From Pseudomonas mendocina (lineage in GTDB: Bacteria; Pseudomonadota; Gammaproteobacteria; Pseudomonadales; Pseudomonadaceae): a DNA stretch of 64,000 nucleotides. Positions within the stretch are counted from its first letter, which is position 1; each line of letters begins with the position of its first letter. Made by a program: the position numbers and the translations under genes. Below the pieces are notes generated by a model, which saw nothing but the letters and a program-made list of their open reading frames with translations, searched no databases and was not told the origin of the DNA. This document shows, in pieces, positions 913-5,315 of the stretch. Where the stretch lies: the NCBI RefSeq assembly GCF_900636545.1, contig NZ_LR134290.1, positions 3,534,001 to 3,598,000 of the forward strand, given 5' to 3'.

Positions 913-2004
913 ATGAATGACGAACAACGCCCCGACGGTTCACGCCGCCAATTTCTCAAGCAGTCGCTGGTCTATTCCGCTGCCGCCGCCAGCGCCGCCT
1001 CGCTGCTGCCGCAACTGGCCAATGCCACGCAGCCTCTCGACCTGCGCTACCCATCCGCTGCGGTCAAGCCGCTGGATGACAGCTTCCTGCAACTACGCCT
1101 GTTCAACGCCAGCGTGGAAAAACTCGCCGATGGCATCCGCTGGGCCGAAGGCCCTGTATGGTTCGGCGACGGTCGCTACCTGCTGGTCAGCGACATCCCC
1201 AACAACCGCATCATGCGCTGGGACGAAATCAGTCAGTCGCTGGCCGTCTACCGCCAGCCATCGAACTATGCCAACGGCCTGGTGCGCGACCGCCAGGGCC
1301 GGCTGATTGCCTGCGAGGGCTCGACCACACAGGATGTTGGCCGACGCATCACCCGCACCGAACACGACGGCAGCATCACCGTGCTGGCCGATACGTTTGA
1401 GGGCAAGCGCTTCAACTCGCCGAACGATCTGGTGGTCAAGCGCGACGGCTCGGTGTGGTTCACCGACCCGCCCTTCCAGACCGGCAACTTCTACGAGGGT
1501 TACAAGATCGAGCCGGAGCTGCCCCATGGCGTCTACCGCATCGACGGCGAAACGCAGCAGGTCACCCGAGTGATCGACGATCTGGCCGGCCCCAACGGCT
1601 TGTGCTTCTCGCCGGACGAGAAGACCCTGTACATCGTCGAGGGTCGTGCCAAGCCGCATCGCCTGGTGTGGGCTTATCAGGTAAACGACGACGGCAGCCT
1701 CGGGCAACGCCGCAAACACATCGAAGCCACCGACACCGGCGCGCTGGATGGGATCAAGTGCGACGAGTTCGGCAACCTGTGGTGCGGCTGGGGCAGCAAC
1801 GGTTCGGCCGAGAGCGATCCGGAAAAGCTCGATGGTGTGCGCGTGTTCAACCCGCAGGGCAAGGCCATCGGCCATATCGCACTGCCGGAGCGCTGCGCCA
1901 ACCTGTGCTTTGGCGGCGAGAAAGGTAATCGCCTGTTCATGGCCAGCAGCCATGGCATCTATTCCCTGTTCGTCAACGCACGCGGCGCCACCTTCATCAA
2001 CTAA
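913..2004 (+). CDS. Tat-exported SMP-30/gluconolactonase-family protein
   Basis: A predicted periplasmic six-bladed beta-propeller hydrolase of the SMP-30/gluconolactonase/LRE family, usually acting on sugar lactones or similar esters. The ATG at 913 follows an AAGGA ribosome site; the frame stays open upstream, but that stretch is not protein-like. The N-terminus carries a twin-arginine motif (SRRQFLKQS, residues 11-19), an Ala-rich h-region and a likely cleavage after LANA, so it should be exported folded. Family signatures in order are WAEGPVWFGDGRY, NSPNDLVVKRDGSVWFTDP, GPNGLCFSPDEKTLY and LDGIKCDEFGNLWCGWG, which contain the Glu, Asn and Asp metal ligands. The 363-residue length is normal for exported members. 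The substrate cannot be told from sequence. Confidence 0.9.
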   Translation: MNDEQRPDGSRRQFLKQSLVYSAAAASAASLLPQLANATQPLDLRYPSAAVKPLDDSFLQLRLFNASVEKLADGIRWAEGPVWFGDGRYLLVSDIPNNRIMRWDEISQSLAVYRQPSNYANGLVRDRQGRLIACEGSTTQDVGRRITRTEHDGSITVLADTFEGKRFNSPNDLVVKRDGSVWFTDPPFQTGNFYEGYKIEPELPHGVYRIDGETQQVTRVIDDLAGPNGLCFSPDEKTLYIVEGRAKPHRLVWAYQVNDDGSLGQRRKHIEATDTGALDGIKCDEFGNLWCGWGSNGSAESDPEKLDGVRVFNPQGKAIGHIALPERCANLCFGGEKGNRLFMASSHGIYSLFVNARGATFIN

Positions 2005-2012
2005 CCACTGCG

Positions 2013-2033
2013 CCACGGCCGCTCCGGCCGTGG
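2013..2033. terminator. GC hairpin after the SMP-30 gene
   Basis: A perfect 8-bp stem CCACGGCC/GGCCGTGG with a 5-base loop lies 9 bases after the stop. No U-run follows, so this is only a possible terminator. Confidence 0.45.
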
Positions 2034-2194
2034 CCTGCCGCGCCTTTCACAAGGCCTTGAGCGCTCTATTTAGGGCGTTTCAGCAAGCATCAGTGGCATC
2101 GATGTTCACCATCATGCCAATGAAGTTCTCTGAAAAAATCCAGTGCGTAACATCTGCTCCATACCCAACCACAACCCCGCTGGAGCAAAACACC

Positions 2195-2713
2195 ATGAAA
2201 CGCCAACTCGTCCTCAGCTTCGCTTTCTCCGTACTGGCAGCCAACGTATTCGCCGCGTCCTCTACCCAACCTGTCGTCGCCGAAGGTGGCTCTGATCGCC
2301 TGATCGAAAGCCGCATCGCCGAAGGTGGTTCCGACCGCCTGATCCAGAATCGCGTCGCTGAAGGTGGTTCCGATCGTCTGATTCAGAATCGCGTCGCCGA
2401 AGGTGGCTCCGACCGTCTGATTCAGAACCGCGTCGCCGAAGGTGGCTCCGACCGTCTGATTCAGAACCGCGTCGCCGAAGGTGGCTCTGATCGTCTGATT
2501 CAGAATCGCGTCGCTGAAGGTGGTTCCGATCGTCTGATTCAGAATCGCGTCGCTGAAGGTGGCTCTGATCGTCTGATTCAGAATCGCGTCGCTGAAGGTG
2601 GCTCCGACCGTCTGATTCAGAACCGCATCGCCGAAGGTGGCTCTGATCGTCTGATCCAGAACCGCGTCGCCGAAGGTGGCTCAGATCGTCTGATTCAGAA
2701 TCGCACCGCCTGA
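2195..2713 (+). CDS. Exported protein made of eleven 13-residue tandem repeats
   Basis: A 172-residue protein. Residues 1-20 or so are a typical Sec signal peptide (MKRQLVLSFAFSVLAANVFA), followed by a short linker. The rest is eleven uninterrupted copies of a 13-residue unit, consensus AEGGSDRLIQNRV, and the protein ends one residue after the last copy. The first copy has ESRI in place of QNRV, the ninth ends in I and the last in T. There are no cysteines, aromatic residues or recognisable domain in the mature part, whose charge pattern is E..D.R..R per repeat. The start follows a long non-coding leader, and a strong terminator follows, so it is a single-gene unit. I do not recognise a function. 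GGSD loosely recalls calcium-binding nonapeptides, but the period is 13, not 9. Confidence 0.88.
   Translation: MKRQLVLSFAFSVLAANVFAASSTQPVVAEGGSDRLIESRIAEGGSDRLIQNRVAEGGSDRLIQNRVAEGGSDRLIQNRVAEGGSDRLIQNRVAEGGSDRLIQNRVAEGGSDRLIQNRVAEGGSDRLIQNRVAEGGSDRLIQNRIAEGGSDRLIQNRVAEGGSDRLIQNRTA
2279..2707 (+). repeat. 39-bp tandem repeat, 11 copies, in frame
   Basis: Eleven 39-bp units encode the 13-residue repeats. Copies differ mainly at synonymous third positions (for example GGTTCC, GGCTCC or GGCTCT for Gly-Ser). This shows both recent homogenisation and selection on the protein sequence. The array spans 429 bp without interruption. Confidence 0.95.
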
Positions 2714-2772
2714 TTGGCCATTCACCCACTGATCGAGAACGTCGTATGACTCGATGGCAAGTGCAGCCCGAA

Positions 2773-2803
2773 AAGGCCGGCCTGATAAGCCGGCCTTGCT
2801 GTT
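2773..2803 (+). terminator. Rho-independent terminator of the repeat-protein gene
   Basis: A 9-bp perfect stem AAGGCCGGC/GCCGGCCTT with a 7-base loop, followed by GCTGTTT, 60 bases after the repeat-protein stop. Confidence 0.75.
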
Positions 2804-2927
2804 TGGGGCACTGAAAGGTCACCCGTACACAGCGCGAATGAATACCCCCGTGTCGCGCCCCGGCAACCAACCGCTGCCACCCCGCTCTATGGTGAAAGCT
2901 CTTTTTGACCGACACCGGAGCGCCAAA

Positions 2928-3275
2928 ATGGCCAACAAACCGATCACCGTTCTGCGCGATACCCAACCGATGCCCGTCGTCGATGCCTGCAAATGGGAGC
3001 GCATCGAAGGTGACCCGCACACCGTCAACCTCAACGCCTACACCTCCGACGACGGCAGCAAGATCATGGGAACCTGGATCTGCACCCCCGGCAAATGGCG
3101 TGTGGAATACGTGAAGTGGGAGTACTGCCACTTCCAGGAAGGTTACTGCATCATCACCCCGGACGGCATGGAGCCGATTCACCTCAAGGCTGGCGATATC
3201 TTCGTGGTCGAGCCTGGCATGAAAGGCACCTGGGAAGTGGTCGAGACCGTTCGCAAGTACTTCGTTTTCGCCTGA
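2928..3275 (+). CDS. Small cupin-fold protein (Cupin_3 / DUF861 type)
   Basis: A 115-residue cytoplasmic protein. The start at 2928 is the first ATG that gives a compact cupin. Its second half has the one-barrel pattern of the ureidoglycine-aminohydrolase-like cupins: GTWICTPGKWRV, then EYCHFQEGYCIITPDG, then LKAGDIFVVEPGMKGTWEV and a VRKYFVF ending. These proteins are usually stand-alone barrels, often near amino acid or opine genes, and mostly of unknown substrate. Here it sits alone between a terminator and a convergent membrane-protein gene. Fold assignment is good; no reaction is claimed. Confidence 0.85.
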   Translation: MANKPITVLRDTQPMPVVDACKWERIEGDPHTVNLNAYTSDDGSKIMGTWICTPGKWRVEYVKWEYCHFQEGYCIITPDGMEPIHLKAGDIFVVEPGMKGTWEVVETVRKYFVFA

Positions 3276-3294
3276 TCGCTGCCCCCTCATATCG

Positions 3295-3319
3295 GTGTGC
3301 GCCCTCTGCCGGCGCACAC
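3295..3319. terminator. Hairpin between convergent genes
   Basis: A 9-bp perfect stem GTGTGCGCC/GGCGCACAC with a 7-base loop lies between the cupin stop and the convergent DUF2798 stop. It could serve both directions. There is no clear U-run. Confidence 0.5.
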
Positions 3320-3396
3320 TCATGCGCCTCACTGGCGTTAGTCAAAGGCAGCACGCCCCGCCAAAGCTCCGAGTCTCCAGAGCTACCCAGGATGTC

Positions 3397-3666
3397 TCAG
3401 GGCGCCCTTACCGTCAGGCTCACCAGCTTGAGCACGATCGGTCGCACCAGCATCACGCAGACGAAAGCCACCGGCATCGCCAGGCTGTATGCACTCAGCA
3501 CCGCCTGTAGGTAACCCTCGCCAAGACCACGGTTTGCAGCCGTAATGACCAGCGACATGAGCATGGCCACGATGCCTGACATGAAAAAGGCAAAGGCCAC
3601 AGGCATGGCGCGCGCAGGCAATTTCCAGCTGCGCGTGACACCTGGCGCGAGGTCGAGATCGGACAT
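3397..3666 (-). CDS. DUF2798-like two-helix membrane protein
   Basis: An 89-residue inner-membrane protein with a short hydrophilic N-terminus, a charged KLPARAMP segment and two hydrophobic helices (about residues 22-43 and 53-78). The KLPAR start followed by two helices matches my memory of the DUF2798 family, which has no assigned function. It is transcribed divergently from the neighbouring LysR regulator across about 100 bp that contain a clear dyad, so LysR control is plausible but inferred. The ATG at 3666 is the only sensible start. Confidence 0.75.
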   Translation of the reverse strand: MSDLDLAPGVTRSWKLPARAMPVAFAFFMSGIVAMLMSLVITAANRGLGEGYLQAVLSAYSLAMPVAFVCVMLVRPIVLKLVSLTVRAP

Positions 3667-3739: not shown

Positions 3740-3766
3740 GTAAGTTGAGTATCAAGCTTAACTTAC
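3740..3766. promoter_or_regulatory. Dyad in the lysR/DUF2798 divergent promoter
   Basis: GTAAGTTGAG and CTTAACTTAC form 10-bp arms with one mismatch, separated by 7 bases, ending 2 bases before the lysR ATG at 3769. The placement suggests an autoregulatory operator. It also argues that the TTG at 3745, which lies inside the dyad, is not the true start. Confidence 0.6.
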
Positions 3767-3768
3767 GA

Positions 3769-4746
3769 ATGGACATCCAATTGGAAAGCAAAAGCACGGA
3801 CACCCTGCGCGGCCTGGAGAGTTTCGTGAAGGCCGTCGAGAGCGGCAGCATCGCTGCTGGCGCACGCTTGCTGGGTATCAGCGCAGCGGCAGCGAGCCAG
3901 AACATTGCCCGCCTGGAGCAGAGCCTGGGGCTGCGCCTGCTCACCCGCACCACCCGCAGCCTGGCACTGACCGACGCCGGCGCGCTGTACTTCGAGCGCG
4001 TGCAAGCGGTGCTTCAGGAGCTGGAGCTGGCCCGCGCCGCCGTCGCCGATCTGCAGGACGAACCGCGCGGCCAGTTGCGCATCGCCGCCAGCGCCGCATT
4101 CGGCCGTCACGTACTGGCCCCGCTGATCCCCGGTTTCATGGCGCAGCACCCGCGCATCCGCTGCGAACTGCTGACGACCGACGCCGTGGTCGATCACATC
4201 CAGGAGGGTGTCGACCTCAGTATCCACATCGCCCAGCAGTTGCAGGACGGCCTGGTGGCCAGGCGCATCGCCACCGCGCAGACACGCTTCTGCGCGGCGC
4301 CAGCCTACCTGCAACGTGCCGGACGCCCCAGCGAGCCCGAACAACTGCGCGACCACGACTGCCTGCTGTTTCGCTTCGCCACCGACGGACGCTTCCTGCG
4401 CTGGGGCTTCGTTCGCGAAGGCGTGCATTTCGATGCCCAGGTCAGGGTTGGCATGAGCAGCAACGACATCGATGCCCTCGCCCAATGCGCCGCGGCAGGC
4501 GGAGGTATCACCCGGCTGGCGTCCTTCGTTGCCGATCCCTACCTGGCCCGCGGCGAGCTGGTCGAACTGTTCTCCTCGGCCACGCCCACCCATGGCCGGG
4601 CCACCAGCGCACCGCTAGACTACTACCTGTGCGTGCGTGATCGCTACGAGCTGACGCCCAAGGTGCGGCTGTTCATGGATTATCTGCAGCACGCCCTGCC
4701 CGCCAATTTGCAACCTTTTGCCGAAGCGCCCTGGCATGGCGTCTGA
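3769..4746 (+). CDS. LysR-family transcriptional regulator
   Basis: A 325-residue DNA-binding regulator of the LTTR family, CrgA/DsdC-like in layout. Residues about 12-70 form the winged helix-turn-helix (LESFVKAVESGSIAAGARLL, then AASQNIARLEQSLG and LLTRTTRSLALTDAG). Residues about 95-305 form the periplasmic-binding-like effector domain. I chose the ATG at 3769 over the upstream TTG because the TTG lies inside the intergenic dyad. The gene is divergent from the DUF2798 membrane protein, its likeliest target besides itself. The inducer is unknown. Confidence 0.92.
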   Translation: MDIQLESKSTDTLRGLESFVKAVESGSIAAGARLLGISAAAASQNIARLEQSLGLRLLTRTTRSLALTDAGALYFERVQAVLQELELARAAVADLQDEPRGQLRIAASAAFGRHVLAPLIPGFMAQHPRIRCELLTTDAVVDHIQEGVDLSIHIAQQLQDGLVARRIATAQTRFCAAPAYLQRAGRPSEPEQLRDHDCLLFRFATDGRFLRWGFVREGVHFDAQVRVGMSSNDIDALAQCAAAGGGITRLASFVADPYLARGELVELFSSATPTHGRATSAPLDYYLCVRDRYELTPKVRLFMDYLQHALPANLQPFAEAPWHGV

Positions 4747-4859
4747 AGCGGCTTGAAAGCGCGGGAACCTGGCCTATTGAAAACGGTCTGTGCTGCTCCG
4801 CCGACCCGGCGGTTTCCCACTCACGGATGGCTCAAAAGGCCCTTCAGCAAGGAATCATC

Positions 4860-5315
4860 ATGAACCGACTCAAGCTGCCGTTGTTCACCCTCGCCTGCGC
4901 CACCACGCCCGAGGCACTGAAACCCTACCCTGCAGCCGAGGCAGGCTACAGCCGCCATGTGATCGAGCTGCCGGCGCAAGCCAACGAAGCCGAATACAAG
5001 GTGGAAATCATCGCCGGCAAGACGCTGGAGGTGGACTGCAACCAGCAACGTCTGGGTGGCCAGTGGCAGGAAAAGACCGTGGAAGGCTGGGGCTACAGCT
5101 ACTACGAACTGGGCCAGGTAGGTCCGGCGGTGAGCACACTGATGGCCTGCCCGGACGGCAGCCGCAAGCAGGCATTCGTGCGCGTTGGCGGCGAGCCGCA
5201 CCTGGTGCGTTACAACAGCAAGCTGCCACTGGTGATCTACGCGCCGGACGATATCGAAGTGCGCTATCGCCTGTGGTCGGCCTTGGGCCAGAGCAGCGTG
5301 GCGCCGCGCCAGTAG
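4860..5315 (+). CDS. eco: Ecotin, periplasmic serine-protease inhibitor
   Basis: A dimeric periplasmic inhibitor of trypsin-fold serine proteases. The 151-residue product has the family start LKPYPAAEAGYSRHVIELPA, the reactive-site loop VSTLMACPDG with Met as P1 as in E. coli, the RYNSKLPLVIYAPDD segment and the two conserved cysteines (LEVDC and LMAC) that tie down the loop. The ATG at 4860 has an AAGGA site; another in-frame ATG at 4827 lacks one. The signal peptide is odd: only about a dozen residues (MNRLKLPLFTLACA) separate Met from mature-like sequence, so export may be weak or the leader partly deleted. The gene stands alone. Confidence 0.93.
   Translation: MNRLKLPLFTLACATTPEALKPYPAAEAGYSRHVIELPAQANEAEYKVEIIAGKTLEVDCNQQRLGGQWQEKTVEGWGYSYYELGQVGPAVSTLMACPDGSRKQAFVRVGGEPHLVRYNSKLPLVIYAPDDIEVRYRLWSALGQSSVAPRQ

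Follow-up and report, generated by a model that had tools for sequence, protein, structure and literature searches.

A Pseudomonas gene for an exported 13-residue tandem-repeat protein with an upstream MexT-type site, in a family that apparently includes PA4881

Background

Among described proteins, the closest to the one studied here is PA4881 of Pseudomonas aeruginosa, which a passage of PMC3557286 (crediting Fargier 2012 and Tian 2009) presents as a tandem-repeat protein under MexT control, its function unknown. In the parts of the published tables available, PA4881 fills the first row with a log2 change of -6.5 in a mexT mutant (PMC12607905) and has values of -10.68 and -9.13 in parS and parR mutants, respectively (PMC3848899). 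Passages of PMC3557286 also report binding of PA2206, an oxidative-stress regulator, to the PA4881 promoter, and a PA4881 mutant whose peroxide sensitivity in disk assays was not increased; none of the literature passages naming PA4881 gives it a function. MexT itself is described, in the excerpts available, as a responder to redox, nitrosative and aldehyde stress, and has been studied chiefly as an antibiotic-efflux regulator, with PA4881 among its most dependent genes. Its consensus is given as ATCA(N7)CGAT in an excerpt of PMC11144800 and as ATYA(N7)YGAT(N4) in one of PMC11432991.

A second described protein that bears on this locus is PtrA, which the available literature passages characterize as periplasmic, induced by Cu and Zn, and regulated by CopRS/CzcRS. 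Literature searches with the repeat peptide sequence, or joining "phage infection protein" (a name carried by some homologues, see below) with copper or mexE, returned nothing relevant, and among passages retrieved for tandem or 13-residue repeats together with MexT only those of PMC3557286 were relevant. Here, we describe a gene from the window (the whole 64-kb stretch of Pseudomonas mendocina DNA analysed) that is a new member of the published but uncharacterised kind to which PA4881 apparently belongs.

Results and discussion

The gene, its product and its repeat array

The window gene encodes a 172-residue, exported-type tandem-repeat protein laid out as a leader, an 8-residue linker (ASSTQPVV) and 11 units of 13 residues. 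The features of the locus are as follows:

2089..2112, + strand: MexT-type LysR operator-like site ATCAGTGGCATCGATGTTCACCAT, from its fit to the published consensus
2126..2153, + strand: candidate -35/-10 elements (TTCTCT ... TAACAT, 16 bp apart), proposed by inference
2181..2187, + strand: ribosome-binding site TGGAGCA, from its position in the sequence
2195..2713, + strand: gene for the exported tandem-repeat protein, 172 aa, from the open reading frame, an NCBIfam match and relatives
2195..2254, + strand: Sec-type signal peptide, about residues 1-20, MKRQLVLSFAFSVLAANVFA, read from the sequence, with an AlphaFold2 helix at residues 4-16
2279..2707, + strand: array of 11 units of 39 bp (13 aa), AEGGSDRLIQNRV, from Tandem Repeats Finder and unit analysis
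2773..2797, + strand: G+C-rich, terminator-like hairpin with a weak T-tract, from folding

The units start at 2279 and every 39 bp thereafter up to 2669, and Tandem Repeats Finder returned the array with a period of 39, 11.0 copies, 90% matches and a score of 636, compared to 56 and 58 for the two remaining arrays in the window. The open reading frame, the array and the unit analysis thus confirm the preliminary description of eleven 13-residue repeats behind a Sec-type leader, and the hydrophobic leader, as read from the sequence, agrees with its view of the protein as exported. Its further statement that the whole mature protein consists of repeats was right about the 11 units and not about the linker, which sits directly before the array; in addition, the exact unit AEGGSDRLIQNRV is found in eight of the 11, while unit 1 reads AEGGSDRLIESRI, unit 9 has a C-terminal I and unit 11 a C-terminal T. 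Between units, pS is 0.347 against a pN of 0.034 (pN/pS about 0.10, from all 55 unit pairs, which are not independent), and therefore the units differ chiefly at silent sites, as had been proposed together with constraint on the protein.

Just upstream of the gene, the sequence GGAGCA is found directly before the start codon in 66 of 66 MKRQ-type family genes, and TTCTC and TAACAT are present in 66 and 52, respectively, of the same 66 upstream regions; a sigma-70 scan around the candidate promoter gave nothing up to threshold. Downstream, the segment 2755-2815 that contains the hairpin folds at -30.3 kcal/mol (z -2.9), and a terminator scan lists nothing for the hairpin itself. Of the earlier claim that the gene is isolated with its own terminator, the isolation stands, as the SMP-30 gene ends at 2004 and the cupin gene starts at 2928, and the terminator is no more than plausible, the hairpin being strong but its T-tract weak and the scan empty. 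Rfam gave no match at 1900-3000.

Several other features were noted near the locus. An antisense ORF of 356 aa (2262-3332, - strand) spans the repeats and the cupin gene and is probably an artefact of repeat codon usage. Genes for a DUF2798 protein (3397-3666, - strand), a LysR regulator (3763-4746, + strand) and an ecotin-type protease inhibitor (4860-5315, + strand) follow, and no link to the repeat gene was seen for any of the three.

A repeat-protein family of the Pseudomonadaceae

The preliminary description was incomplete in that it overlooked a genus-wide family membership, an NCBIfam match and an upstream MexT-type site. A protein search found 417 relatives at E <= 0.001 among the 8000 best-scored candidates, and in a genus sample the family was found in 143 of 149 genomes (the window's own included), with between 1 and 10 matches in each of them. 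All 61 named loci from a genome-collection scan, whose patterns were derived from the window protein and so capture close relatives only, belong to Pseudomonas. With a paralogue from the window genome (L002) as query, a family-level sample gave matches in 41 of 119 genomes and 10 of 19 genera. At the order level, matches at E <= 0.001 were found in 15 of 244 genomes; six of these lie outside the Pseudomonadaceae at low identity and were rejected as members, since the best match (8.1e-18) had only 27% identity and both strands were matched. Two fetched order-level loci from outside the family (L164 and L168) contained no family ORF, and in a class-level sample of 369 genomes only the window's own matched at E <= 1e-8. 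Judged from these matches, the family is one of the Pseudomonadaceae, with no credible member beyond it in the order and class samples.

To compare units across 114 distinct family proteins, we used a search expression with one fixed Gly that admits only D/E/S and R/H/K/Q two and three residues on. At the free positions of the core, A occurs in 97%, E in 84%, and S or A in 97%; at the restricted positions, D makes up 95% and R 97% of the allowed letters. A clear period was detected in 95 of the 114 proteins (13 residues in 81, 26 in 10, and 12, 14, 16 and 27 once each), and unit lengths of 12, 13, 14, 16 and 18 residues were seen in relatives, the last in a group of genomes termed g9. Past residue 28, 113 of the 114 proteins are free of Cys and 113 of Trp, with a median of 15% Gly and 14% Arg and a net charge of about zero.

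The window genome itself carries two paralogues: L002, with units of AE(G/D)GADRVG(L/P)NRV, and L003, with 16-residue units and, as read by eye, a desaturase-like gene adjoining it. The stretch outside the AEGGSDR core differs between paralogues. Elsewhere in the genus, five tandem family matches were seen within 4.5 kb (G023:C1:5435429-5439917). A second, MFNF-type subfamily, many members of which end in VAENRAEFGSKYQRY, is without the MexT box and shares another conserved element upstream (loci L073, L076, L080, L081, L087-L089, L092, L095 and L096, at about 4000-5000 in each); in 10 of 20 loci, the MFNF-type member has a gene for an OmpR-type response regulator close by (domains PF00072 and PF00486, as checked in L087).

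Among the matches listed (the best 120 of 417), several Pseudomonas homologues bear the names "hypothetical protein" or "phage infection protein". No phage record matched the family, and the latter name looks like annotation drift. Mobility was also considered and is not supported, with one plasmid record and no phage record matched.

The MexT-type site upstream of the window gene

The site at 2089-2112 fits both published forms of the MexT consensus. Compared to a longer form, ATCAN5GTCGATN4ACYAT, it has one mismatch; such one-mismatch sites are expected 0.11 times per 64 kb and occurred at least once in 10 of 100 shuffles. When the form is widened to RTCGAT (the R variant, chosen after seeing 2089-2112), this is the sole zero-mismatch site in the 5.19-Mb genome, where 49 sites are found at two or fewer mismatches (2 in the reversed control) and six at one or fewer, two of them ahead of family genes. 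The paralogues L002 and L003 have sites with one and two mismatches, respectively, and in all three genes the site begins 106-108 bp before the start codon, within the stretch of about 103-116 bp where MexT-type sites of this kind are expected in the family. From this fit and spacing, we infer that 2089-2112 serves as a MexT-controlled operator of the repeat gene.

Alignment of upstream regions from the 66 MKRQ-type genes, read from 40 of the 66 rows, revealed a conserved element, and exact ATCA(N7)CGAT is present in 39 of the 66. Across the 114 family genes, which were gathered independently of the box (leaving out any whose protein contains X or whose upstream sequence is shorter than 150 bp), the box ATYR-N7-YGAT-N4-ACYA was found within 160 bp upstream of 58, at 103-114 bp, compared to none of 114 with the reversed pattern and none of 2280 mononucleotide shuffles; the ATYR of this box is a loosening made in the light of paralogue L002, and its ACYA end derives in part from the alignment. 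MexT control is not family-wide, because 56 of the 114 genes are without the exact box, and the 20 MFNF-type members, none of which has it, carry a different upstream element.

In seven whole genomes, picked for carrying family genes, the pattern ATYAN7YGATN4ACYAT gave 34 sites and its reversed control none. Family genes follow 13 of the 34: for 12 of the 30 sites with fetched loci, a family gene starts 105-109 bp further on, and one of the four without (G049, 4122993) lies 105 bp before a family match by coordinates. Ahead of the remaining 18 of the 30 we see luciferase-like monooxygenase genes (2), genes for assorted small proteins, further genes or no evident gene. Because the ACYAT end derives in part from the alignment, its contribution to the enrichment is not independent. 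In our searches of open literature, we found no description of the family's scale or of its share of predicted MexT sites.

The window genome also encodes the regulator. A 304-aa LysR protein (L219, 1501-2415) has MexT (6l33) as its best PDB match at 1.2e-104, far above other LysR structures, and is named MexT on the basis of this match; no above-cut-off NCBIfam model names either it or a second MexT-like LysR in the genome (L220) as MexT. A divergent 340-aa quinone-oxidoreductase-like gene adjoins the MexT gene and is taken for MexS. Considered jointly, family membership and MexT control of the window gene are highly probable.

Further sites and regulators were noted in other genomes. Family genes have a MexT-like LysR gene no further than about 3 kb away in L053 (8484-9542), L054 (6802-7800) and L064 (7507-8634, - strand), and a fragment of one lies near the family gene in L061. 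In two genomes (L105 and L244, both at 1501), a MexT-type site stands 94-97 bp before a luciferase-like monooxygenase gene (PF00296, L105), which may be a conserved MexT target. In three genomes (L233, L239 and L241), a MexT-type site lies ahead of the gene for a small protein whose start region reads T(L)..SVSFPVFG; the L241 protein has no Pfam match.

The apparent counterpart of PA4881

Four g9 genomes (G156, G258, G220 and G171) carry a family gene with mostly 18-residue units, whose box stands 110-111 bp before the start. This gene comes after a ferritin-like gene (PF00210) in G156 and G258, where the surroundings also include a fatty-acid desaturase gene (confirmed with Pfam in G156); the former is presumably PA4880 and the latter presumably desB (PA4888). 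With these neighbours, we take the g9 family gene to be, apparently, the counterpart of PA4881, and the family of the window gene thus apparently includes PA4881. These counterparts resemble the window protein in being exported, in having a tandem A-E-N-G-S ... D-R core and in their MexT-type box; the window protein, with tandem A-E-x-G-(S/A)-(D/E)-R units behind its Sec signal, is of the PA4881 type. They differ from it in unit length and in following a ferritin-like gene, whereas the window gene has 13-residue units and SMP-30 and cupin flanks. The genomic place of PA4881 is not that of the window gene, and these flanks therefore suggest paralogy to PA4881 rather than speaking against family membership. 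By position, the counterpart of PA4881 in the window genome is rather paralogue L003, beside its desaturase-like gene. Our results indicate that PA4881 is part of a genus-wide family, which would make this orphan a testable component of the MexT response.

As a check, the R variant at one or fewer mismatches gave four sites in G156: one belongs to the PA4881-like gene, one to a gene for a glutathione S-transferase and one to a gene for a porin of the OprD family, while the setting of the fourth is unclear. The available part of PMC3848899 places PA2813, a "probable glutathione S-transferase", together with MexEF-OprN and PA4881 in its list of genes activated by ParS/ParR, and that of PMC10848761 has it among genes raised together with MexEF-OprN. 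One-mismatch MexT-type sites were also seen in two g9 genomes before genes for one type of porin (L213 and L217; PF03573, the OprD family, in L213).

Array length varies in frame

At the orthologous locus in relatives, the array has 11 (here), 13, 13, 6, 6, 4 and at least 9 units. The cupin side is 88-92% identical in seven loci, and the SMP-30 side is common to three only (L048, L050 and L082); the unit count of L082 was dropped for a 285-base N run, and L049 runs off the edge of its contig. Repeats may be collapsed in draft assemblies, and among the counted loci only G000 (11 units) and G078 (13 units) are on whole-chromosome contigs. The proposal that copy number can change is supported, with 4 to 13 units at one locus. 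In G078 and G063, all 13 units contain IEN, compared to IQN in 10 of 11 units of the window array, and therefore each array has been homogenised separately. Since 39 bp is a multiple of 3, gain or loss of units keeps the reading frame and changes length, not on/off state; phase variation as an on/off switch, which had also been suggested, is not supported on these grounds. With their different lengths, the arrays of this locus form a natural series in which the importance of unit number can be examined.

Predicted structure and known repeat classes

Given an alignment of 46 rows (the window protein and 45 others), AlphaFold2 returned a mean pLDDT of 41.2 and a pTM of 0.11, with no secondary structure in the repeats and only the signal helix. 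Run on the single sequence, its five models ranged from pLDDT 29 to 61 (the second at 58, three near 30), and the best (pTM 0.47) had one strand per unit; compared to PDB folds, this model matched none at E <= 0.001, an absence that says little for a model of such low confidence. By composition, disorder is borderline (Uversky H 0.41). Going by these models, the repeats are most likely disordered or conditionally folded, though they may instead adopt a beta arrangement. His, Cys and Met are absent from the repeat region, and therefore direct thiol or soft-metal chemistry is unlikely.

The original view that the units belong to no standard repeat family was upheld, as Pfam gave only a sub-threshold chance match to the window protein; a PDB sequence search likewise returned only a chance match (E 0.69). 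TIGR03620 and other NCBIfam enzyme matches did not come near their cut-offs and were dismissed as compositional. The unit shares a Gly-Gly ... Asp turn-like element with RTX proteins and is without their nonapeptide GGxGxDxUx, and no Pfam model was above cut-off. Hydrophilins are defined by more than 6% Gly and a mean hydrophilicity above 1; at 15% Gly the protein passes the first, and its GRAVY of -0.79 falls short of -1.

A possible role and its alternatives

We propose that MexT would activate the repeat gene, such that the protein is made alongside MexEF-OprN, and that the product, exported by Sec, would stay in the periplasm. It would then act by the number of its units and not via a single active site, each unit presenting the conserved A-E-(G/D/N)-G-(S/A)-(D/E)-R on a hydrophilic, charge-balanced, cysteine-free chain that may bind or shield something many times over, as a stress-protecting or ligand-buffering polyampholyte. 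Recombination would alter the number of units in frame, and arrays are homogenised. The unchanged peroxide sensitivity of the PA4881 mutant counts against this proposal, though paralogues may mask the loss of a single gene and could thereby account for that result. The buffering role is possible, if doubtful; for the combined statement, a periplasmic MexT-linked stress protein acting as a multivalent binder or shield, the chances seem slightly short of even. A broader idea, that the redox and electrophile response of MexT has, in addition to efflux and detoxification enzymes, a large periplasmic arm of fast-evolving, cysteine-free repeat proteins (up to 10 per genome) forming a length-tunable buffer or shield, is tentative and somewhat unlikely; if true, it would represent a stress-protein class not described as such.

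These proposals must be weighed against a PtrA-type function in periplasmic Cu/Zn tolerance, with repeats of the PtrA N-terminal motif binding metal. The window protein matches NCBIfam NF041599 (PtrA/PA2808) at 3.7e-31, with 106.8 bits against a cut-off of 31, and PtrA-like proteins of family genomes bear a single copy of (A)EGG(G/A/S)DR, or of a motif close to it, where the mature protein begins, just past the signal peptide, the periplasmic location and Cu/Zn induction of PtrA (as given in the passages available) adding to the appeal. However, the score is high because it sums 11 copies of one short stretch, the best single copy reaching 17 bits. PtrA-like proteins also differ from the window protein in having a single motif, a different C-terminal part, CopRS/CzcRS regulation and, in G156, a copper-gene setting, where the short PtrA-like ORF (ADGGGDITF...) adjoins cupredoxin, multicopper oxidase and response-regulator genes. 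The window protein instead has 11 units without His, Cys or Met and a MexT-type upstream site, and none of its five scanned neighbours is a copper gene. We therefore rank a copper-regulon reading lower than MexT control, consider the PtrA-type function unlikely, and treat the resemblance as no more than a shared motif.

A beta-rich structural fibre, solenoid or surface matrix protein, as first suggested, would suit the strict repetition and the one strand per unit of the best single-sequence model, but the homologue-based model has no structure in the repeats, the single-sequence model is of low confidence and without a matching PDB fold, paralogues with the same core differ in unit length, and none of the five scanned neighbours is a secretion or anchoring partner, which together make it quite improbable. 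Near-identical units, arginines at fixed places and within-array homogenisation could alternatively point to a precursor cut after its arginines into many identical short peptides, serving as signals or binding a partner; no dedicated protease or exporter was found among the same five genes and the stretch outside the core varies between paralogues, and we regard such a precursor as very improbable. Wide variation in unit number is also what neutral repeat expansion in an unimportant exported protein would produce, but this is very unlikely in view of the low pN/pS, the presence of the family in nearly all sampled genomes of the genus and the conserved upstream site.

A side effect on annotation was apparent as well: NF041599 passes its cut-off on some EGGSDR repeat proteins because the motif is repeated, and "PtrA-like" names given to such proteins may be wrong.
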